Of a stretch of DNA of 41,904 nucleotides, positions 4,354-39,342 are shown in pieces. Source of the DNA: a virus. Position numbers and translations under genes: made by a program. The DNA lies in the IMG/VR virus record IMGVR_UViG_3300034072_000546, positions 1-41,904 of that record; one strand, given 5' to 3'. Position 1 is the first letter of the stretch, and each line of letters begins with the position of its first letter. A model generated the notes under the pieces. That model did not search any database and had not been told where the DNA came from. It saw only the letters and a list, made by a program, of their open reading frames with translations.

Positions 4354-4613
4354 CACGCACCAGCCTTTCGGGCGGCTGTCATCGCACGCGTTTCGAACAT
4401 CGGGTGATTTAGACGTGGGTAGAAATTTCGCTGCCAGTCAGCACTATTGATCGGGTCGAACTCGATCTGCGCGCGGCAGTCATCGCAGTACCAAGAGAGG
4501 GAGCCGTGATTGTACCAATTCGCCGGTGCGCATTGGCAACGCGTACGGTTGCAGCTTCCACCCTCTTGGCCCTTGTCGGCCTTATCTGGGCCGTCGTAAT
4601 CGCCGTATGCCAT
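4353..4613 (-). CDS. Cysteine-rich small phage protein
   Basis: 86 aa starting MAYGDYDGPDKADKGQEGGS. Cysteines at CNRTRCQC and CDDC form two paired clusters separated by about 20 residues, resembling a zinc ribbon. The rest is polar, with NHPMFETRAMTAARK near the end. Function unknown; a nucleic-acid-binding role is only a guess from the Cys pattern. Confidence 0.7.
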   Translation of the reverse strand: MAYGDYDGPDKADKGQEGGSCNRTRCQCAPANWYNHGSLSWYCDDCRAQIEFDPINSADWQRNFYPRLNHPMFETRAMTAARKAGA

Positions 4614-4659
4614 TTCCTGCCCCTTATCTGTTACTCTGACAAAGCCGGTGGGTTGGTGG

Positions 4660-5001
4660 TCAAAACTCGTAAGACGCGACTTCGTAAACCGTGCGTTTCA
4701 TGCGCGAGTAGTCGACACCGCCTGTTTCGAGGATGTGTTTCAGGTGACGGATTTTGGACTTGAGCCAAGCTTCCTTGCCATCGTCGCTTGAATAGTGTTC
4801 GCTGGAAGCGACAGTCTCGGTGTAGCGATCCTTGCTTCGACAGATTTCGAGCCTGATGAGATCAACGTGGCCGCTGTATTCGAAGAATACGCAATACTCG
4901 GTCTCGGCGTTGACGACGTAGGCCAGATATCCAATCTCAGCCATCAACTTTGCCCGGCGATTCTTTTCAGCGGGCGATGCTTTTTCGGTGTAGTAGCTCA
5001 T
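4660..5001 (-). CDS. Hypothetical early protein
   Basis: 113 aa starting MSYYTEKASPAEKNRRAKLM. It has a predicted alpha/beta mix with strands around YLAYVVNAETEYCVFFEYSG and LIRLEICRSKD, then a Ser/Asp-rich stretch and a helix. No recognisable motif. Its coding reality rests on length, orientation and position within the operon. Confidence 0.65.
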   Translation of the reverse strand: MSYYTEKASPAEKNRRAKLMAEIGYLAYVVNAETEYCVFFEYSGHVDLIRLEICRSKDRYTETVASSEHYSSDDGKEAWLKSKIRHLKHILETGGVDYSRMKRTVYEVASYEF

Positions 5002-5024
5002 TATCTTATCCCGCTGTGCTGTGG

Positions 5025-5261
5025 TTATTTGGTGGGGGACGGGGAGAACCAGACACCAACAATCTGGTGCTGGCAGAACTCGGCAAGGCAGACATCACCC
5101 GCCCAGACGCGGACGTATGGAATGTCGGCGTGCATGCCGGATTTCGTGCAGGCTTCAATCCTTGTCACCCCAGAGCGACAAACGGCATACGAGGCCTGCG
5201 AATCCGGTATCGTATCGATGAGGATTTCTTTGATTTCCTGATTTACGGGGTGTTCGCCCAT
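5025..5261 (-). CDS. Hypothetical early protein
   Basis: 78 aa, MGEHPVNQEIKEILIDTIPD onward, in the same orientation and close spacing as its neighbours (23 nt to the next start). It contains four Cys without a clear metal pattern and a hydrophobic C-terminal strand (QHQIVGVWFSP). I do not recognise it. Confidence 0.6.
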   Translation of the reverse strand: MGEHPVNQEIKEILIDTIPDSQASYAVCRSGVTRIEACTKSGMHADIPYVRVWAGDVCLAEFCQHQIVGVWFSPSPTK

Positions 5262-11333: not shown

Positions 11334-11932
11334 GAGTTCTCGGGCTCGACGTTTCAAAACACGCTGGCTGGGCACTCTGGGAAACCAAGAACGCTCTCGC
11401 GTCGATCCGCTGTGATGTGATGGAGTTCCCGGCAACGGCATCCATCGAATACTGCGCCGACCAGATGGGCCTCAAGGTGACAAAGCTCATCAAGGATGAG
11501 AAGCCGGATTTCATCGTTCTGGAAACCGCTCTCAAGATGAGCCCGAAGGGTTCGGCCGCGACGGTCTCCTCCTGCATGCTGCACGGCGCCGTCTATGCCA
11601 CGCTCGGCAATTGGGGCAAACCCTGGGGAACGATCAGCGCCGCTACCTGGCGCAAGATGTTCTTCGGCGCTGGCTATAAGCCGCCACTCGACAATCACGG
11701 CAAGAACGACTGGAAGCGCGCCGCCATTGAGCAGTGCGAGCTTGAAGGCATCATCCTGCCGGCGAAGAAGTCCACCCGAGACAATGCGGCCGAAGCTGCT
11801 GCACTCGCGGTGTGTTGGCGTGGTGTCGAGATCCACGCGGGCCGGTATCGCCCAGCGTTCCAAGACTTTCTTCAACAGCGCAACGAGCGCGCGCCGTCGG
11901 GCGATCTGTTTGCGGGAGTGGCGCATGAATAA
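11330..11932 (+). CDS. RuvC-like Holliday junction resolvase
   Basis: 200 aa. The RNase H-like nuclease core is visible: Asp7 in VLGLDVSKHAGWAL, Glu65 in FIVLETALK, and Asp151/Glu155 in RDNAAEAAALAVCW, with WRKMFFG and KRAAIEQC in the usual places. RuvC-type enzymes cut four-way junctions symmetrically; in phages they resolve recombination intermediates and branched replication products before packaging. The C-terminal tail is variable. The stop overlaps the helicase-methyltransferase start. Confidence 0.88.
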   Translation: MRVLGLDVSKHAGWALWETKNALASIRCDVMEFPATASIEYCADQMGLKVTKLIKDEKPDFIVLETALKMSPKGSAATVSSCMLHGAVYATLGNWGKPWGTISAATWRKMFFGAGYKPPLDNHGKNDWKRAAIEQCELEGIILPAKKSTRDNAAEAAALAVCWRGVEIHAGRYRPAFQDFLQQRNERAPSGDLFAGVAHE

Positions 11933-14426
11933 CTATCAGGATTTCCTCAAGAACAAGATACGCCTTGCGCCCGTGTCAGGCCTGGAAGTTGAACCCAAAG
12001 AGGTAAACCCGATCCTGAAGCCTCATCAACGCGATATCGTTGTGTGGTCTGTGCGCGGTGGCAAGAGAGCGATATTTGCGGCCTTTGGTCTCGGCAAGTC
12101 GGTAATTCAGATCGAAGTTCTCCGGCTGGTGACAGAGAAGACGGCCGGCCGGGGCCTGATAGTCCTCCCACTCGGCGTTCGTCAGGAATTCCGGCGCGAT
12201 GGTCAGATGCTTGGTGTCGAGATCAAGTTCATTCGCCGTATCGAGGAAGCGGGCGACACTGGTCTCTACATGACCAACTATGAGACGGTCAGGGACGGCA
12301 AGATCGATCCAAACGAATTCACGGCCGTTACGCTGGATGAGGCTTCGGTTCTCAGATCCTACGGCTCCAAGACATATCAAACGTTCCTCTCGCTGTTCGA
12401 TGGCGTGCGGTACCGGTTTGTGGCTACTGCCACACCAAGCCCGAACCGCTACAAGGAGCTTATCCACTACGCCGGTTTCCTCGGCATCATGGACACGGGG
12501 CAGGCTCTTACCCGGTTTTTCCAGCGTGATAGCACCCAGGCCAATAACCTGACGCTTTACCCGCACAAGGAGCGTGAATTCTGGCTGTGGCTCAATTCCT
12601 GGGCAATATTCCTCCAATCGCCCGCCGACCTTGGTCACTCGGCTGAAGGCTACGACCTGCCGCCGTTCAAAGTCATCTATCACGAGGTCCAGTCGAACAT
12701 TGCCGATGGTGGCGTGGATAGAGACGGCCAGTCGGCGCTCTTCCGCGATACGGCCGTTGGCGTCGTTTCAGCTTCCCGCGAGAAACGCGACACCTTAGAT
12801 GCACGCATCGGAAAGATGAGCCAGATACTCGCCGCGGCTCCTGGCGATAATTTCCTTATCTGGCACGACTTGGAAGACGAACGCAGAGCGATCGAGAAAG
12901 CGGTACCAGGCGTAGTGTCGGTATACGGCACTCAGGACCTGGAGAAGCGCGAGCAGGCGATTGTCGATTTCAGCGACGGCAAGTTTCAGCATCTGGCAGC
13001 AAAGCCGGTAATCGCAGGATCCGGCTGCAACTTCCAGCGCCACTGTCACAAGGCAATCTTCTTGGGCATCGGCTTCAAGTTCAATGACTTCATCCAGGCG
13101 CTGCACCGTATCTACCGGTTTCTGCAGGCGCATGAGGTCGAAATCCACATCATCTACGCCGAAAGCGAGCGCGAAGTTTTGCGCACGCTGCAGGCCAAAT
13201 GGGAGGCGCATAAGCACATGGTGCAGAACATGAGCGAGATCATCCGTGAGCATGGCTTGGATAAACTCTCCGCGGCCGATGTTCTTACGAGGTCGATCGG
13301 CGTCGAGCGCATCGAAGCTCGAGGCGAAGGCTGGCAGGTCGCCAACAATGATTGCGTGGAAGAGGCAAAACTGATCGCGGACAACTCCGTCGATATGATC
13401 GTGACCTCCATCCCATTTTCTAACCACTACGAATACACGCCGAGCTACAATGACTTCGGCCACACCGACAGCGACGATCATTTCTTCCAGCAGATGGACT
13501 TTCTAACGCCTGAGCTGTTGCGCATCCTAAAACCCGGCCGTGTCTATGCCTGCCATACGAAAGACCGGATCCTCTTCGGCAATGTCACAGGCATGGGGAT
13601 GCCCACGGTCAACCCCTTTCATGCCCGGACGCTGTTTCACACCATGTCCCACGGGTTTGCCTACATGGGCATGATCACGGTTAACACCGACGTGGTGCGC
13701 GAGAACAACCAGACGTACCGCCTTGGATGGACTGAGAATTGCAAAGACGGCACGAAAATGGGCGTAGGCTCTCCCGAATATATCCTGCTGTTCCGCAAGC
13801 TCCCGTCTGACACTTCCAAGGCCTATGCTGACGACCGGGTAACGAAGGACAAAGAAGACTATACGCGCGCGCGCTGGCAGGTTGACGCGCATGCCTTCTG
13901 GCGATCTTCCGGCGATCGTCTGCCTACACCTGACGAGTTGGCGTCACTCGGGCCGGATATGCTGGCAAAGGCATTCACGGAATGGTCGCTGCAGAACGTC
14001 TACGACTATGAGACGCACATCAAGATCGGTGAAGCGCTGGAAGTCCGCGGCGCGCTGCCATCAACCTTCATGAGCCTGGCGCCAGGAGCGCACGACGCTT
14101 TTACCTGGCACGATGTGAACCGTATGCGCACGCTGAATGGCGATCAGACAAAGAAGGGTCTGGAAAACCACATCTGCCCCCTTCAATTCGATATCGTTGA
14201 TCGGCTTATCAAGCGCTTCTCCAATGAAGGGGAGCTTATTTTCGATCCGTTCGGAGGCCTGTTCACGGTACCGTACCGAGCGCTGAAGCTTCGCCGGCGT
14301 GGCCGGGCGTCAGAATTGAACCCCGGGTATTTCCTCGATGGAATCAAGTACCTGCAGGCGATGGAGCGCGAAGTGTCCACGCCAACCATGTTTGACATCT
14401 TCGATTGCGACGAGGTGGCAGCATGA
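11925..14426 (+). CDS. Superfamily 2 helicase fused to an N4/N6 DNA methyltransferase
   Basis: 833 aa from ATG at 11925 (MNNYQDFLKNKIRLAPVSGL). The N-terminal half is an SF2 helicase: Walker A FGLGKS near residue 53, DEAS near 136, TATPSP near 168, and QALHRIYR (motif VI) near 391. The C-terminal half is an amino-methyltransferase in beta order: catalytic motif IV VTSIPFSNHYEYTPS near 495 and SAM motif FDPFGG near 772, with ELNPGYF after it. Motif IV normally reads [DNS]PP[YFW]; here it is SIPF, one Pro replaced. Such fusions recur in rhizobial phages and may unwind and methylate phage DNA to evade restriction. Overlaps RuvC by eight bases. Confidence 0.88.
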   Translation: MNNYQDFLKNKIRLAPVSGLEVEPKEVNPILKPHQRDIVVWSVRGGKRAIFAAFGLGKSVIQIEVLRLVTEKTAGRGLIVLPLGVRQEFRRDGQMLGVEIKFIRRIEEAGDTGLYMTNYETVRDGKIDPNEFTAVTLDEASVLRSYGSKTYQTFLSLFDGVRYRFVATATPSPNRYKELIHYAGFLGIMDTGQALTRFFQRDSTQANNLTLYPHKEREFWLWLNSWAIFLQSPADLGHSAEGYDLPPFKVIYHEVQSNIADGGVDRDGQSALFRDTAVGVVSASREKRDTLDARIGKMSQILAAAPGDNFLIWHDLEDERRAIEKAVPGVVSVYGTQDLEKREQAIVDFSDGKFQHLAAKPVIAGSGCNFQRHCHKAIFLGIGFKFNDFIQALHRIYRFLQAHEVEIHIIYAESEREVLRTLQAKWEAHKHMVQNMSEIIREHGLDKLSAADVLTRSIGVERIEARGEGWQVANNDCVEEAKLIADNSVDMIVTSIPFSNHYEYTPSYNDFGHTDSDDHFFQQMDFLTPELLRILKPGRVYACHTKDRILFGNVTGMGMPTVNPFHARTLFHTMSHGFAYMGMITVNTDVVRENNQTYRLGWTENCKDGTKMGVGSPEYILLFRKLPSDTSKAYADDRVTKDKEDYTRARWQVDAHAFWRSSGDRLPTPDELASLGPDMLAKAFTEWSLQNVYDYETHIKIGEALEVRGALPSTFMSLAPGAHDAFTWHDVNRMRTLNGDQTKKGLENHICPLQFDIVDRLIKRFSNEGELIFDPFGGLFTVPYRALKLRRRGRASELNPGYFLDGIKYLQAMEREVSTPTMFDIFDCDEVAA

Positions 14427-30425: not shown

Positions 30426-30890
30426 ATGTCCACTTCTGACATCGGCCACACGCTTTACTTCAAGGCGGGCGCACCGGCGACTTTTGATGAAGCCGGCTAT
30501 GAGGCGCTGTTCACCACGGGCGCCATCAAGGTAAACGGCATCCAGTCTATCGGTCCCGTTGGCGGCACCAATGCCATTATCGATGTGCCGGATCTGGAAA
30601 GCGGCTGGATCATGGGTGCAAAGGGCGCCAAGACCGGATCGGCAACCGCCATCTCCATGCGCGAGATCAAGGCCGATGCTGGGCAGGCGGCCGTTAAGGC
30701 AGCGGCCAAGGAAGGCCCGCATAACCTCTACTCGTTCAAGATCGTGGAGCCTGGCGCCAGCGGCGAAGTCGAATACATCACCGGCATTTGCCACGACTGG
30801 CAGCGTAACGAGCGCTCTACGACCAGTTATGCCGGCTTTACCTTCAGCATCCGTGCAAACTATGACAGTGTCGTAGCAGAGGCTCCCTGA
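30426..30890 (+). CDS. Major tail tube protein
   Basis: 154 aa. Starts MSTSDIGHTLYFKAGAPATF; beta-rich with ESGWIMGAKGAKTGSATAIS, YSFKIVEPGASGEVEYITGI and a final RSTTSYAGFTFSIRANY. The size and position between tail terminator and tail chaperones fit a hexameric tube protein. The middle (KTGSATAISMREIKAD) resembles tube proteins of rhizobial siphoviruses. Confidence 0.82.
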   Translation: MSTSDIGHTLYFKAGAPATFDEAGYEALFTTGAIKVNGIQSIGPVGGTNAIIDVPDLESGWIMGAKGAKTGSATAISMREIKADAGQAAVKAAAKEGPHNLYSFKIVEPGASGEVEYITGICHDWQRNERSTTSYAGFTFSIRANYDSVVAEAP

Positions 30891-31336
30891 TGGATTTCAA
30901 CCAGTTCGATAGCCGCAAGGCATCCGAGAAGCCGCGTGCGCTTCACCTGAAGCACCCCGGCACGGGCAAGCTGCTCTATGACGAGGACGACAAGGCGAAG
31001 CCCTGCCGGGTTCTCGTTCTCGGCATCGAGGGTGCTACAGGCCAGACGTCCATCCTCGAAAGCCAGCGCGCGCGCATGAAGGAAGATCGATCGGCCGGCG
31101 AGCCTGTCACGGTCGAATCCATCCACGCCAATCTCGTGAAGGACTTCGCGCCTCTGGTCGTCGGCTTCGAAAACATCAGCCGCGGCAATAAGGCAGCGAA
31201 GGCACCTGATGACGTCGAATGGTTTCTGAACCTGCAGGTGGTCAACGGGAACCGGGCTCAGAAGTCCTTTGTCGAGCAGGTAAGGGATTTCGCCACCGAT
31301 CGCGCGGCAATCCTGGGAAACGAGAGCGCCAGCTAG
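30890..31336 (+). CDS. Tail assembly chaperone (G-like)
   Basis: 148 aa, MDFNQFDSRKASEKPRALHL onward; contains HPGTGKLLYDEDDKAKPCRV and VKDFAPLVVGFENI. As in lambda gpG, it lies between tube and tape-measure genes and ends in a frameshift window: GGGAAAC at 31315-31321, read as G GGA AAC, five codons before the stop. Most ribosomes make this protein; some slip to make the longer form. It coats the tape measure during tail assembly. Confidence 0.85.
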   Translation: MDFNQFDSRKASEKPRALHLKHPGTGKLLYDEDDKAKPCRVLVLGIEGATGQTSILESQRARMKEDRSAGEPVTVESIHANLVKDFAPLVVGFENISRGNKAAKAPDDVEWFLNLQVVNGNRAQKSFVEQVRDFATDRAAILGNESAS

Positions 31337-31677
31337 TCTTGGCGGCCCAGCAACTCGGCTGGCTGGCGTCCACGATCACCAACGAGAAGATGAGCCGGGG
31401 GCAAAAGTACCTCGTCTCTGGCCTTACCCCGCCGATGCCTGAATTGGAGGCTGGGGAATATCTGCTTGATGCCCTGAAGGAACTCGGCCCGATCCGCTCG
31501 AACGGTATGGGCCTTGGTACGCCGGACTGGCAGGAGCTGGTGGCCTTCGCAGCAGCAAATGACCTCGCGCTTCAGCCTTGGGAGTTCCGTCTGATCCGAA
31601 AGATGGCTTCGGCTTACTTGTCTGGGTTCAATTCAGGCAAAGAGCCGTTGAGTATTCCGCCGATGGAGCGGGAATAG
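31318..31677 (+). CDS. Tail chaperone T extension made by -1 frameshift
   Basis: Slipping back one base at G GGA AAC (31315-31321) continues as GKRERQLVLAAQQLGWLAST, then KMSRGQKYLVSGLTPPMPEL up to 31677, giving a GT-type fusion of about 262 aa. The extension has no convincing start codon and ribosome site of its own near its beginning, and it overlaps the G-like gene, exactly as in lambda gpG-T. The T part recruits tube protein to the tape-measure complex. The heptamer is of the same G GGA AAx type as in lambda. Confidence 0.82.
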   Translation, partial: KRERQLVLAAQQLGWLASTITNEKMSRGQKYLVSGLTPPMPELEAGEYLLDALKELGPIRSNGMGLGTPDWQELVAFAAANDLALQPWEFRLIRKMASAYLSGFNSGKEPLSIPPMERE

Positions 31678-31695
31678 CGCGGGAAAAAATGAAAA

Positions 31696-31719
31696 CCCGA
31701 GGGGTTACCTCGGGCTTTC
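31696..31719 (+). terminator. Terminator after the tail chaperones
   Basis: CCCGAGG (31696-31702), loop GGTTA, CCTCGGG (31708-31714), then CTTTCA. It separates the conserved tail genes from the accessory island. Confidence 0.6.
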
Positions 31720-31791
31720 ATGGGAGGAATGGTCCGGCGGTAAGATTGCTGTGCCCTCCCAAGCTAGGCGGGTTGCCGGTCCTCATCCCTC

Positions 31792-31807
31792 AAAACCCCT
31801 TTCGGGG
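31792..31807 (-). terminator. Leftward terminator of the toxin operon
   Basis: On the minus strand CCCC-GAAA-GGGG (31796-31807) followed by TTTTG, a short GNRA-looped terminator 50 bases beyond the end of the MazF-like gene. Confidence 0.5.
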
Positions 31808-31857
31808 ACAGGCTTAATATATAGATGTCAATGGCTAACTTCAAGGACTCGCAGAAA

Positions 31858-32253
31858 TCATAGGCCCAGTGCAAACGCGAGACCTTCAGCGAGTTCTTTC
31901 AAATGCTTTTCGCTCAAGAACTCAGAGGGATGGCGTCTGTTATTCCTCAATATAAGGTCGAGACGCGAATGCGAAACAGTTGTCACCATTTTGCATCTCG
32001 CCCATGAATCTTTGGTGAGGCTCCAATATGTACCCTTAGGGATGAATATATCATCCACTCCGGGAGACGCGGGAGGGACAGTCGAAAAGGGGATCACCGT
32101 TGCGGTGCCCGGCGCGAGTGCATGGCGCTGGTTATTGGAAAGGACAGAGACTACCGCAACCTGACGCGTTTTGCGCATCTCAGGGGTAATGTAGGCCAAT
32201 TCAAAGTCGCACATCAGGATGGCACCGCGCTTGGGTGCAAAGGTGATTGCCAT
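31858..32253 (-). CDS. PemK/MazF-like toxin
   Basis: 131 aa. N-terminal KRGAILMCDF is the usual MazF opening strand (RGdI....). Later VAVVSVLSNN, TATVIPFSTVPPASPG, FIPKGTYWSLTKDSWARCKM (TKDSWA like the family's 'l...SyV') and a final helix SEFLSEKHLKELAEGLAFAL. MazF proteins are ribonucleases that cut mRNA at short sequences. It follows a small XRE gene by six bases on the same strand, so the pair may form a toxin-antitoxin unit with an unusual antitoxin. Confidence 0.78.
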   Translation of the reverse strand: MAITFAPKRGAILMCDFELAYITPEMRKTRQVAVVSVLSNNQRHALAPGTATVIPFSTVPPASPGVDDIFIPKGTYWSLTKDSWARCKMVTTVSHSRLDLILRNNRRHPSEFLSEKHLKELAEGLAFALGL

Positions 32254-32259
32254 GCGGGA

Positions 32260-32544
32260 TTAGCCGTTTCCGATGAAGGTGCCGCCCTCGGGCGTAGTGG
32301 ATGGGCTGAGACGGACGCCGGGGCCGCCTGTTGTCGTTTCGCCTTCGGCAAGGAAGATAATGCCTCGTTCCTCAAGAACGCGGATTATGGATGAGATGTT
32401 TTGATAGTTTCCACTAAGCGGGCCAGTTGAACCTTCATACCTCTTGAGGGTCTGAACAGGGACATCTGCGGCCTCGGCCAACGCCCGCTGTTCGATCTTT
32501 AGGAGTGCCCGAGCTGCCCTGAGTTGGTCTGCTGTTATGGTCAT
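32260..32544 (-). CDS. XRE-family regulator, possible antitoxin
   Basis: 94 aa. HTH at the N-terminus: ITADQLRAARALLKIEQRAL, then AEAADVPVQTLKRYEG and a short linker to VLEERGIIFLAEGE and a flexible C-terminus. 'AAR.ll...Q..LA..a.v...tl.r.E...G......i..il...GI.F' is the common single-domain regulator of alphaproteobacterial mobile elements. It lies just upstream of the MazF-like gene and faces ATACCT/AGGTAT operators. Confidence 0.8.
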   Translation of the reverse strand: MTITADQLRAARALLKIEQRALAEAADVPVQTLKRYEGSTGPLSGNYQNISSIIRVLEERGIIFLAEGETTTGGPGVRLSPSTTPEGGTFIGNG

Positions 32545-32548
32545 AAAT

Positions 32549-32615
32549 GATACCTGCGTACTTTTTTCGGGTTTTAGGTATTGACTGTGAGGATTGATAT
32601 TGCTACCTAGGTATC
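32549..32615. promoter_or_regulatory. Operator cluster between divergent genes
   Basis: GATACCT (32549-32555), AGGTATT (32576-32582) and TACCTAGGTATC (32604-32615, containing the 10-bp palindrome TACCTAGGTA) share one half-site. TTGACT at 32581-32586 is a possible rightward -35. Probably the autoregulatory site of the XRE protein. Confidence 0.55.
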
Positions 32616-32641
32616 ACAGCAGATACGAAGGAGCAACCGAA

Positions 32642-32872
32642 ATGTACAGCAACACTTCTTCTCAGGTTAATACGCTCTTGGGTGAGGCGAACGCTGCCGC
32701 AACCGTCAACAAGAAGCGCGTCGAACGTCTGGCAAAACTCTTGGCTGACGCAATGAAAGACATTCACGGTGGCGATTGGCGTCTCGACATCAACCACGAT
32801 GCCGAAGCCTTCTATGCCATGGTGGCACCGAAGCGCGGCTTTTCAGCAAAGCCAACACCGGAGGCTGCGTGA
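32642..32872 (+). CDS. Small accessory protein
   Basis: 76 aa from ATG at 32642, with GAAGGAG upstream (MYSNTSSQVNTLLGEANAAA). Helical N-terminus (KKRVERLAKLLADAMKDIHG) then a strand WRLDINHDAEAFYAMVAPK. Divergent from the XRE/MazF pair and overlapping the lipoprotein gene start (GTGATGG). Function unknown. Confidence 0.6.
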   Translation: MYSNTSSQVNTLLGEANAAATVNKKRVERLAKLLADAMKDIHGGDWRLDINHDAEAFYAMVAPKRGFSAKPTPEAA

Positions 32873-33126
32873 TGGATCGTCGCACAGTTCTTAAGGGTGG
32901 CCTCGTTGTCGCCGCGTGTTCACCGGCACTTGCCATCGCCCCTGAAAACCCTCTGCCAGACGTGTCGGAGTTGCCGGTCGATAAGGTTCACCGCCTGGCA
33001 GAAGAACTCGCCCACGCGCTGGACGAATTGAATGCGGCAACGAACGTCAAGTTCTCGGCGCAGGTCGCGCCAGCATCCTCTGGGATGGGAATCTACTTCC
33101 GCAATGAGCGGTTAGGCTTCGCCTGA
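32872..33126 (+). CDS. Putative Tat-exported lipoprotein
   Basis: 84 aa from ATG at 32872. The start MDRRTVLKGGLVVAACSPAL has a twin-arginine motif (RRTVLKG), a hydrophobic stretch and a VAAC lipobox-like site, so the mature protein would start at Cys16 and be anchored in the membrane on the outer face. The mature part is short (LPVDKVHRLAEELAHALDEL, NAATNVKFSA). Phage lipoproteins of this size often block superinfection; that role is inference. Alternatively it is an ordinary Tat-secreted protein. Confidence 0.62.
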   Translation: MDRRTVLKGGLVVAACSPALAIAPENPLPDVSELPVDKVHRLAEELAHALDELNAATNVKFSAQVAPASSGMGIYFRNERLGFA

Positions 33127-33136
33127 AATCTGAAAT

Positions 33137-33246
33137 TCCCCGCTGCCATGGGGATGTAACGCGAACACAGAGCTTCATAGGCTCCGGTGTTCGTGAAAGC
33201 GAACCCCTGTGCGTTACCGGGCTTGGCAGGCCGGACGCCTATGGAG
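33137..33246 (+). promoter_or_regulatory. Structured leader upstream of the pentamer-array cassette
   Basis: Nested pairings: TCCCC/GGGGA (33137-33154); GTAACGC/GCGTTAC (33156-33162 with 33211-33217); CGAACAC/GTGTTCG (33162-33168 with 33187-33193, sharing C33162 with the previous stem); GAGC/GCTC inside. An exclusive alternative pairs CATAGGCTCC (33176-33185) with GGACGCCTATG (33233-33243, one bulge), next to the GGAG ribosome site of the 33253 gene. Two competing folds next to a ribosome site are what a translational switch looks like. No known riboswitch class recognised. Confidence 0.45.
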
Positions 33247-33252
33247 ACTGAA

Positions 33253-33918
33253 ATGGCCGTTACGAAAAAAGAGAACGTTGGTATTGAACTGCCGAAGCTG
33301 GATATCCGGCTGATGGAAGTGGCCGTGGTGGGTGACAGCCCGCTTATTGTCCACGCTTGGTCTGAGAAGGCCAAAAAGGAAATGCTCGACAAGCAGATGA
33401 AGAAGGCCAAGCCGGCCAAGGAGGCAAAAGACCCGAAGGCGGATTTTGAGGCTTCGATGTACCGGCTTGCCGATGGCGGTTATGGTTTCCCGAGCGTTGC
33501 ATTCAAGAATGCCGCGGTCACGGCCGGAACCTCCGTCGCCGGTCTGACGAAAATCCAAGCCCGTCAGGCGTTCCACATCTTGGGTGAAGACGCCGACATT
33601 CAGGGAGCGTTCGAAGGCTCCAAGTCTCGCGTCAATCTCGTTCGTATCGAGGGCGGCAAGCCATCCATGCGCGAAGACATGGTTCGGGTTGGCATGGGAA
33701 CGGCAGACCTCCGGTATCGGCCCGAGTTCTCGGAATGGCACGCAAAGCTGCTTGTCCGCTACAACGCCAATGTCCTGAGCGAAAGCCAGATATTGAACCT
33801 GCTCAACGTCGCGGGCTTTGCGGTCGGTGTCGGGGAGTGGCGGCCGGAGAAGGATGGCCAGTACGGCATGTTCCACGTCGCCACCGAAGCCGACATGTCG
33901 AAGCTGGAGGCTGCATAA
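33253..33918 (+). CDS. Conserved phage protein with RAMP/Cas7-like sequence layout
   Basis: 221 aa from ATG at 33253, six bases after GGAG (an in-frame ATG at 33241 contains that site). Order of features: an opening strand LDIRLMEVAVVGDSPLIVHA, a Lys-rich linker with KKAKPAKEAKDP, then GYGFPSVAFKNAAVTAG (compare the RAMP 'iPgsslKgalR'), VNLVRIEGG, REDMVRVG, a strand AKLLVRYNANVLSESQILNL, and a closing VGVGEWRPEKDGQYG, like the Gly-rich loop of RAMP/Cas7 folds. This family, with the same partner gene, recurs in many phages with no assigned function. The Cas7 likeness is my reading of motifs and is unproven. Confidence 0.6.
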   Translation: MAVTKKENVGIELPKLDIRLMEVAVVGDSPLIVHAWSEKAKKEMLDKQMKKAKPAKEAKDPKADFEASMYRLADGGYGFPSVAFKNAAVTAGTSVAGLTKIQARQAFHILGEDADIQGAFEGSKSRVNLVRIEGGKPSMREDMVRVGMGTADLRYRPEFSEWHAKLLVRYNANVLSESQILNLLNVAGFAVGVGEWRPEKDGQYGMFHVATEADMSKLEAA

Positions 33919-34436
33919 TGCGCATCGCTGGCTTTGAATTTGCAGAGGGTGCCCGGTTCCAGCCGGGTGCCGAGAAGAACGCCAAGCTTGTTGGCGAACA
34001 CATCGAAATGTTGCGGGCGAAGTTCAAAGGCGAACTGACTCCGCAGGATGTTCTTGACGACGCGCGCAACAACAACTCGCCGCTCCACTCCTTCTTTGAG
34101 TGGAACGACGGGGAGGCGGCGGAAGCCTATCGCCTCCAGCAGGCGAGGGGACTCATTCGCGCCGTGGTGGCCGTGTATGTCTCTGATGACCGCCCAGCGG
34201 TTCGTCAGAAGGCTTACGTCCACATCGCGGAAAAGGGCGCTCCCCACTACAGGGAAACCAGCCACGCGATGTCGCAGACCAAAACGCGAGAACTTGTTCT
34301 CAAGCGAGCATGGTCGGAGTTGCAGGCGTGGAAGACGCGGTACAAGGATCTGAAGGAGTTCGCGTCCTTCATCGATATCATCGACACGATCGACAAAGAC
34401 TTCCCGAAGTCGCTGGAGAAGGTCGGCAAGCACTAA
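33918..34436 (+). CDS. Helical partner protein of the array cassette
   Basis: 172 aa from ATG at 33918, sharing the TAATG junction with the gene above. Middle part LTPQDVLDDARNNNSPLHSF, FEWNDGEAAEAYRLQQARGL, then a strand AVVAVYVSDDRP and two long helices (TRELVLKRAWSELQAWKTRY, FASFIDIIDTIDKDF). The 'SPLH..FEW(D/N)D..AA..YR..QAR.LIR' signature belongs to a widespread phage family of unknown role. Mostly helical and of the size of Cas11-type small subunits, which is suggestive only. The pentamer array begins about 25 bases after its stop. Confidence 0.7.
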   Translation: MRIAGFEFAEGARFQPGAEKNAKLVGEHIEMLRAKFKGELTPQDVLDDARNNNSPLHSFFEWNDGEAAEAYRLQQARGLIRAVVAVYVSDDRPAVRQKAYVHIAEKGAPHYRETSHAMSQTKTRELVLKRAWSELQAWKTRYKDLKEFASFIDIIDTIDKDFPKSLEKVGKH

Positions 34437-34461
34437 GGCGGAACCGGATGCCCGTTCGGTT

Positions 34462-34695
34462 GGCAAGGATCATGGTAGGGCAGGCTAGGCGCGGCGAGGT
34501 GCGTTGTGGTGCGGTAAGGCTCGGTTTGGCAGGCTAGGTACGGCTAGGTAAGTCGGGGTCTGGTGTGGCTAGGCTGGCAAGGCGAGGTTAGGCCGGGAGA
34601 GGTTAGGCTCGGCTTGGCGGGATTGGGCAGGCTAGGCATGGCGCGGCACGGCGGGGTACGCCGAGGCGCGGCACGGCATGGTCTGGCAACGCAGG
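34462..34695 (+). repeat. Degenerate pentamer array, consensus GGYNN
   Basis: About 234 nt with five-base periodicity. By hand I count about 48 register positions: about 43 have GG, and in all but about two of those the next base is C or T; the last two bases vary freely (CTA, CGC, TGC, TAA, CAC, CAT and others). Steps of four occur about five times and one of seven. Deviant units read GT, GA, GC or CG. The G-rich strand is the coding strand of the upstream gene pair. A terminator follows ten bases later, so it is probably transcribed as an RNA tail or released RNA. It is not a CRISPR and not protein-coding; frames are open only because the repeat lacks stops. Confidence 0.85.
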
Positions 34696-34704
34696 TCAAC
34701 AAAA

Positions 34705-34734
34705 GAGGCGGCTCCGGCCGCCTCAACTGTTTTA
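34705..34734 (+). terminator. Terminator closing the pentamer array
   Basis: GAGGCGGC (34705-34712), loop TCCG, GCCGCCTC (34717-34724), then AACTGTTTTA. A strong 8-bp GC stem with a moderate T-tract. Confidence 0.72.
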
Positions 34735-34744
34735 GGAGATGGAT

Positions 34745-34840
34745 ATGAACGCCGAGACACGAAAAGATGTCCCGATTTTTGACCCGAAGAAGGAAAGCTA
34801 CGAATCCTTCGTGGCTAGGGTCGTCAAACCTTCGAAATAG
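34745..34840 (+). CDS. Possible 31-aa peptide
   Basis: ATG at 34745 has AGGAGA six bases upstream and the frame ends with TAG at 34838-34840: MNAETRKDVPIFDPKKESYE then SFVARVVKPSK. The good ribosome site and protein-like composition support translation. Its end overlaps the minus-strand gene 34824-35132 by 17 bases, so it may be what is left of a longer gene cut off by an insertion. Confidence 0.45.
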   Translation: MNAETRKDVPIFDPKKESYESFVARVVKPSK

Positions 34841-35132
34841 CTTCAGCCAGCTTTTTCATTTCTCCCTTCGGTAAAGACATCACTAGAAGTGCTTTACCGA
34901 ACCCCAAGCGTAAACGTGGGTCTCCTGTTTCTTGGTCGATCTCGATAGTTATGGCGTCAGGGTAGATCACGGCTCCTCCGAGCGGGGTGAAATCACCTGT
35001 TTGCTTTGAGTGATTCTGCATCTTCGCAAGAAGATTGGAAATAAACGCGCTCGCTACTTCCGACCTTATCGCCTCGCGCTCTGATCCAACTTGAAACTCA
35101 ACGCTGCCATCCGGCAGAACTTTGGTATCCAT
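34824..35132 (-). CDS. Small accessory protein on the opposite strand
   Basis: 102 aa starting MDTKVLPDGSVEFQVGSERE with AAGGAG before the ATG. Segments SAFISNLLAKMQNHSKQTGD and ITIEIDQETGDPRLRLGFGK, ending MKKLAEAISKV. It resembles in length, layout and strand the gene at 38086, also a lone minus-strand gene within tail genes: a moron-like pattern. Function unknown. Confidence 0.66.
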   Translation of the reverse strand: MDTKVLPDGSVEFQVGSEREAIRSEVASAFISNLLAKMQNHSKQTGDFTPLGGAVIYPDAITIEIDQETGDPRLRLGFGKALLVMSLPKGEMKKLAEAISKV

Positions 35133-35192
35133 GCATTACTCCTTTGGCTTGGCAAGCGAAAAGGAGCACGGATGCAATCGGGAGTCGAGTCT

Positions 35193-38758: not shown

Positions 38759-39342
38759 GCATTGATCCAGTCGTCGCAGCGCAGATCGAGAAGGGCCGCA
38801 TCGCTCGCCTCGACCTGATCCGCTTCGATCTCCCCGGCAAGACGGTGGGTTATCATCGCGGTGGCCGCCCTTACGTTTACAATGGGCTTACCTATCTGCC
38901 GAACCGGTTTCTGGATATCGGCAGCATGACTTCTGCGGTGGGAACGGCGGTCACGACGCGCACCATTACGTTCTCGGATATTCCGGTTACCGATCCCGAC
39001 GATGCAGTCGCGAAGATCGAGGAGTTTGACTACCAGAACTCCCCGGTCATTATCGCCCACCTTTGCGGCGTGCCGAACACGAATGAGGTTTTGGGCATCC
39101 TCGCATCTTCCATCTATGAGATCGACCAGGTGCGTTACAACAAGGGCGCTGTATCGGGCTCTGAGCGCACGCTGACGATGGAGATCGACCTACAGCCGCC
39201 GGGACGCTCGGCGCGCGGCTCTACCGGCGTCAAGCGCTCGATCGCTGAACAGCAGTTCGACAATAGCCCTACAGACACTGGCCTCGAGTATGTGGCCACC
39301 AACGCCAGCATTCCTGAGGAATGGGGCCAGAGGCAAGGCTGA
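38755..39342 (+). CDS. Minor tail protein (DUF2163-like)
   Basis: 195 aa starting MSIDPVVAAQIEKGRIARLD. Strands LIRFDLPGKTVGYHRGGRPY, then VYNGLTYLPNRFLDIGSMTS, TRTITFSDIPVTDP and a C-terminal TLTMEIDLQPPGRSARG match the 'l.r.dl..g....yh.G...y..ngl.Y.......' layout of baseplate-hub-like proteins around DUF2163 in alphaproteobacterial phages and gene transfer agents. It precedes the peptidase gene, as usual. Confidence 0.78.
   Translation: MSIDPVVAAQIEKGRIARLDLIRFDLPGKTVGYHRGGRPYVYNGLTYLPNRFLDIGSMTSAVGTAVTTRTITFSDIPVTDPDDAVAKIEEFDYQNSPVIIAHLCGVPNTNEVLGILASSIYEIDQVRYNKGAVSGSERTLTMEIDLQPPGRSARGSTGVKRSIAEQQFDNSPTDTGLEYVATNASIPEEWGQRQG

Follow-up and report, generated by a model that had tools for sequence, protein, structure and literature searches.

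A GGYNN array beside a vipr gene in a tailed phage of rhizobia, very probably a further VIPR system

The vipr gene, the accessory gene and the array

The window, by which the whole analysed stretch of 41,904 nt is meant, carries two overlapping genes, vipr and an accessory gene (vap), followed on the same strand by an array of five-base units and a hairpin (Table 1). Comparison of the Vipr family profile with the PDB gave one convincing match to a solved structure, the SUSP1 Vipr protein (36pp_D, E=1.2e-37), and a Pfam search returned no family for Vipr. The AlphaFold model of the protein (pLDDT 90.7) was matched best by Foldseek to the Cas7-type RAMPs Csm3, Csm5 and Cmr6 (E 3.4e-6). The predicted fold is thus Cas7-like; this fold and the conserved residues G188, G192, R197 and G205 would fit the RRM core, glycine-rich loop and thumb by which Vipr is described to bind guide RNA. 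The model of the accessory protein is of high confidence (pLDDT 95.2) and shows a weak resemblance to winged-helix proteins (best match a DNA-binding protein, E 0.14), nothing convincing was found in the PDB by sequence or fold, and the Pfam match was below threshold. Of 80 loci in the window's own Vipr subfamily, 77 have the gene, compared to 0 of 80 in another subfamily.

An earlier note, made from the sequence alone, had proposed that 34462-34695 is an array with a five-base rhythm in which GG and a pyrimidine are fixed and the last two bases vary. The rhythm was confirmed, as 35 GG pairs at lag 5 were counted within this interval compared to 10.9 ± 2.7 in 2000 dinucleotide shuffles (shuffle maximum 20), and the signal was restricted to the array, the rest of the window being far below. 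The composition was found to be as proposed: among 39 clean pentamers at 34483-34689, the first position was G in all 39, the second G in 35 and the third C or T in 38, and the entropies of the fourth and fifth positions were 1.84 and 1.89 bits (maximum 2), so that the NN positions are close to random. The register is loose across 34451-34482; the clean array therefore begins at about 34478 and not at 34462. The strong terminator that had been claimed behind the array held up in part: a hairpin is present, but the T-run that accompanies it on the + strand is modest. Since the hairpin also occurs in array-free sister phages, it belongs to the backbone in common. An Rfam search gave zero matches.

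Table 1. Positions of the features discussed (numbering of the window)
Feature	Position	Strand	Details
VIPR cassette	31678..34702	.	not in sister phages, whose empty site lies between a tail-chaperone-like gene and the hairpin
vipr gene	33253..33918	+	221 aa, phrog_4652; predicted RAMP (Cas7-like) guide-RNA-binding protein, from profile match to 36pp_D, model and Foldseek
accessory gene (vap)	33918..34436	+	phrog_15946, E=1.4e-21; overlaps vipr stop codon
four-base unit GGCA	34479-34482	+	ahead of guide 1
guide 1	34483..34527	+	9 pentamers, NN = TA GC GA GC GT GC AA TC TT; tape-measure gene of sister phages
four-base unit GGCA	34528..34531	+	between guides 1 and 2
guide 2	34532..34571	+	8 pentamers, NN = TA AC TA AA GG CT GT TA; phrog_11779 tail gene of sister phages
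four-base unit GGCT	34572..34575	+	between guides 2 and 3
guide 3	34576..34625	+	10 pentamers, NN = AA GA TA CG GA TA TC TT GG TG; target not found
four-base unit GGCA	34626..34629	+	between guides 3 and 4
guide 4	34630..34689	+	12 pentamers, first 11 NN = TA AT GC AC GG AC GA GC AC AT CT; tail-terminator start
terminator-like hairpin	34705..34724	+	GAGGCGGC TCCG GCCGCCTC; common to sister phages without VIPR
own allele of guide 2 target	38872..38895	+	4/16 read bases differ
site matched by guide (a) of L126 phage	39286..39314	+	19/20; L126 Vipr 99% identical to the window's

Such a combination of genes and array was recently described as VIPR (Viral Interference Programmable Repeat) in a 2026 preprint, which is the sole support for the mechanism (PMC13142463). 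According to its main text, VIPR consists of Vipr and of vrRNAs made of alternating GGY and NN units, and its binding to double-stranded DNA follows a noncontiguous code, with pairing at every NN and one base of the target passed over; silencing and phage defence were demonstrated there at the bench for type II VIPR. The homology of the Vipr proteins, the array beside the gene and this published description together identify the array of the window as a vrRNA array.

Linkage of GGYNN arrays to vipr and the four-base units

The linkage between array and gene was examined from both sides. A gene-free search of viral contigs with the pattern (GGYNN)8GGY gave at least 120 stretches. Of 121 sequences examined (the matches listed and the window), 96 had a well-scored array, with lengths of up to 325 units among the matches listed. 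When the neighbouring genes of these listed matches were clustered, the commonest neighbour was a homologue of vipr (at least 51 loci), located directly upstream of the array and on the same strand in 40 of 51 loci at a median distance of 17 bp; homologues of the accessory gene formed the second commonest family. Starting from the Vipr protein alone, arrays were found at 126 of 160 viral loci, with GG always on the vipr coding strand. This search of related loci was run with two subfamily alignments, the 49-member Vipr alignment being too diverse. Arrays beside homologues of the upstream gene pair had been named in the earlier note as a check. The note had also seen that the G-rich strand of the array coincides with the coding strand of the two preceding genes; it does so in the window and in 126/126 related loci. 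The controls were negative: arrays were seen neither in simulated loci (0 of 80) nor in phage loci retrieved with other, non-array patterns (0 of 32). Among annotated phages, arrays lie beside vipr in Mycobacterium phage Quico, Gordonia phages ODay and Pipp, and Pseudomonas phage LESphi2.

A short tandem period and repeated short words would also be seen in a decaying microsatellite or a recombination hot spot without function. However, the units are unlike each other, the register persists in hundreds of phage loci over stretches that reach hundreds of units, and the arrays stand on the vipr strand beside one gene family. This explanation, against which the earlier note had also spoken, is already refuted by the linkage and by the target matches described below, and its likelihood is close to nil.

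Some arrays of the family differ in length or composition. At about 1.6 kb, those of L109 (1956-3547; 325 units) and L062 (7605-9152; 310 units) are far longer than the 9-16 repeats given for single vrRNAs. In the L107 array (4600-5047), 92% of the units have T at the third position, giving GGT and not GGC, which indicates that the choice of pyrimidine is phage-specific.

The occasional four-base units that had been noted as shifts of register were genuine. In the window's subfamily 670 such units were counted, 428 of them GGCA; they recur throughout the family, with a usual spacing of 8-13 pentamers, and so are not noise. They were found in 126 of 127 arrays beside an accessory protein of the window's type versus 41 of 165 arrays beside Vipr without the accessory. 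On the basis of this association the accessory protein may process or read the four-base unit, or the association may reflect ancestry rather than function. The preprint mentions a supplement item on "staggered arrays with overlapping vrRNAs" (PMC13142463), and by this title it may refer to the punctuated arrays seen here.

Guides, targets and the sister phages

For the reading rule, 7023 distinct nine-unit guides were compared with 2.26 Mb of DNA in which the arrays were masked. With one base skipped per unit, 35 exact and 298 one-mismatch matches were obtained, as against 2 and 47 for unit-shuffled guides. Many of the skip-1 matches were redundant; after removal of redundancy (distinct complex guides, at most one mismatch) 78 were left for skip 1 compared to 19 for skip 0 and 24 for skip 2, and neither skip 0 nor skip 2 gave an excess over shuffled guides. 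Skips 3 and 4 produced matches for shuffled guides too, and these probably come from leftover array-like DNA. In a family-wide test of all segments between four-base units, the short segments gave mostly noise. A guide of the L285 array exactly matches, under the one-base skip, the vipr genes of L237, L247, L258 and L282, which is consistent with the report of some VIPRs attacking other VIPRs.

Three of the guides in the window could be decoded. A search of all viral contigs with nine exact units of guide 4 gave six contigs (L330-L335), all from homologous phages, in which the match extends to 11 units (22/22 bases), the twelfth and last unit being mismatched. In all six, the site covers the start codon of a gene beginning MATGTDATILAAL, which encodes the tail terminator (PF13554, E=2.4e-28). 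Guide 1 matched 18/18, in frame, within the tape-measure gene in L336, L337 and L339 (three contigs), the site being identical in sequence in L336 and L339; a further match in L338, in an unrelated protein, is probably due to chance. Guide 2 matched 16/16 in five of the six guide 4 phages and 15/16 in the sixth, and its sites vary among these phages mainly at the skipped bases. Guides 1 and 4 had served to find the target contigs and guide 2 had not, so its match in phages found via guide 4 makes the agreement of the two guides independent. The skipped base falls on the codon wobble position at the targets of guides 1, 2 and 4, and 0 of 200 unit-shuffled guides equalled these three. A target for guide 3 was not found: nine exact units gave 0 matches in 2.9 million viral contigs, eight exact units gave 15 scattered matches (about chance level), and up to three mismatches in the sister phages or at most one mismatch in 395 host-family genomes gave none. 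Guide 4 was likewise without a match in the 395 host-family genomes. The proposal of the earlier note that the array is a modular guide RNA, with GG as a contact and positions 4-5 as the address, is thus borne out, and complementarity with the GG positions ignored, which it had named as a check, leads to tail genes of sister phages.

These matches also weigh on two other readings of the array. One is that the RNA is a mere loading or regulatory track for the RAMP-like protein, a decoy or autoregulator in which NN drifts without an address. The protein is indeed a RAMP, the conserved part is the GG scaffold and the entropy of NN is near maximal, and the proposal that the array loads a filament fits in part, as RAMP proteins oligomerise on guide RNA. 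Nevertheless, three of the four segments match rival phages at every read base except the last unit of guide 4, unit shuffles never match as well, and the sole working spacing is the one-base skip, so that the modular guide is favoured and a track without address is quite improbable. The other is that the array works, at the level of DNA or RNA, through consecutive two-tetrad G-quadruplexes, (GG-N3)n. GG does recur each five bases on one strand, but the quadruplex reading leaves the pyrimidine at position 3, the linkage to vipr, the four-base punctuation and the target matches unexplained, and 34478-34740 is predicted to fold as a stable duplex (z -4.6, in a folding model that does not include quadruplexes). 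The quadruplex is superfluous as an explanation, and its probability is very slight.

The targeted phages are sisters of the window phage, the longest aligned stretches having 73-92% identity, and Vipr was absent from the nine targeted sister-phage records, several of which are fragments. In L337, the sequences corresponding to window 30540-31673 (89.8% identity) and 34703-35191 (99.2%) align directly adjacent to each other, and L336 is laid out likewise. Since these phages are continuous from 31673 to 34703, the interval 31678-34702 is a cassette that they lack. The cassette begins with a PemK/MazF-like gene (31858-32253, - strand; PF02452, E 1e-10) and a helix-turn-helix gene (32260-32544, - strand), which are oriented away from the vipr operon and may form a toxin-antitoxin pair with a role in stabilising or regulating the cassette. 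In the targeted sister phage L334, a 52.7-kb record without Vipr, a short degenerate GGYNN array (about 2041-2095) lies at the genomic site that corresponds to that of the window's array, and would be either an orphan array or a remnant of a lost VIPR cassette. Elsewhere in the window, 11595-14426 (+ strand) encodes a 943-aa fusion of an SNF2-like helicase and an N6/N4 DNA methylase. Close relatives of Vipr were found in genomes of Phyllobacterium, Mesorhizobium and Martelella, and the tape-measure matches were mostly to Rhizobium and Sinorhizobium phages. This points to a probable host within the Hyphomicrobiales.

The window phage itself carries other alleles of the targeted genes. At the guide 2 site it reads TAC GTT TAC AAT GGG CTT ACC TAT compared to TAC ACC TAT AAT GGC CTC GTC TAT in L331. 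Guides 1 and 4 had zero matches in the window at up to three mismatches; the tape measure is divergent in the guide 1 target region, and the tail terminator belongs to the sister-phage terminator family but has diverged. The guides thus read alleles of rivals that are absent in the owner. A reciprocal case was seen for the L126 phage, whose guide a matches the window phage and, at 18-19/20, all nine sisters, and is unmatched in its own 33-kb record. The window guides 1, 2 and 4 gave zero matches in the 33-kb L126 record, and for segment b of the L126 array a target was not found in the sister phages. All four decoded guides (1, 2 and 4 of the window and L126 a) are bounded by four-base units or by the array end, and from this coincidence we infer that the units divide the array into separate guides.

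Interpretation and comparison with known systems

Taken together, the window very probably (about 0.95) carries a VIPR system of Vipr, accessory protein and vrRNA array, as a cassette of a rhizobial tailed phage. VIPR itself is already known, and the locus is another member. The RAMP-homologous Vipr, the GGY/NN units and vap beside vipr are found in the window, and recognition with a one-nucleotide skip and competing mobile elements as targets are seen at the level of sequence matches. In the proposed mechanism, the array would probably be transcribed by readthrough from the vipr operon. Each guide would be covered by Vipr, GGY serving as the fixed contact, and the NN pairs would base-pair with DNA, passing over one target base in every unit. 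Once bound, the complex would prevent transcription of the tape measure, distal tail protein and tail terminator genes of rival sister phages, the four-base units would separate the single guides inside one array, and self-targeting would be avoided because the phage's own alleles of the targeted genes are divergent. Relative to the main text of PMC13142463, what is new is the punctuation mark and the allele-specific targeting of sister phages, not the system. That the four-base unit, mostly GGCA, is a guide separator in one transcript and that the guides are allele-specific weapons against rival tail alleles has, in our estimate, an even chance of being correct. If so, with guides reading the tail alleles of rivals, VIPR may drive the exchange of tail-module genes, a possible new reason for the frequent swaps of phage tail genes, and this arms-race model is directly testable. 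VIPR is a newly described noncontiguous RNA-to-DNA addressing, a distant cousin of CRISPR and its proposed forerunner, and its code could be read here straight from the sequence in a type other than that studied at the bench, so that guides, targets, rivals and self-avoidance can be named.

The locus resembles type II VIPR (SUSP1, P. fulva prophage), as far as this is described in the main text of PMC13142463 and in PDB 36pp, in the homologous Vipr, the GGY/NN RNA, the phage-borne location, the accessory gene adjoining vipr, the targeting of competing phages and the one-nucleotide skip with the skipped base at the codon wobble position. It differs in having one continuous array with four-base cuts and one terminal hairpin, whereas the type II vrRNAs described there are separate, about 100 nt long, with 9-16 repeats and their own structured 3' tails. 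The targets are tail genes of sister phages, in contrast to the satellites or lysogeny regulators reported for type II. Homology of the accessory protein to the Vap1-position proteins of SUSP1-like and P. fulva-like loci was not detected. The continuous punctuated array and an accessory protein not detectably related to Vap1 place the locus within VIPR but outside type II, and the details of RNA processing may differ as well. With the RAMPs of Class 1 CRISPR-Cas (Csm3/Csm5, Cmr6) Vipr shares the Cas7-like fold, and in both the protein interrupts guide-target pairing at regular intervals; the sequence identity is 7-15%. Unlike Class 1 systems, the guide information is noncontiguous and there is no repeat-spacer array; in agreement with the earlier note, no CRISPR-type direct-repeat array was found in the window, and no cas family among the scanned genes around the array. 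The nearest likeness among annotated phages is to Gordonia phages ODay and Pipp and Mycobacterium phage Quico, which have a homologous Vipr and accessory protein and GGYNN arrays beside vipr. These phages have other hosts and a Vipr only 40-46% identical, and in Quico the array lies upstream of vipr, unlike in the window. In ODay (L123), an unrelated phage, the VIPR locus is likewise situated between the tail assembly chaperone and the tape measure gene.
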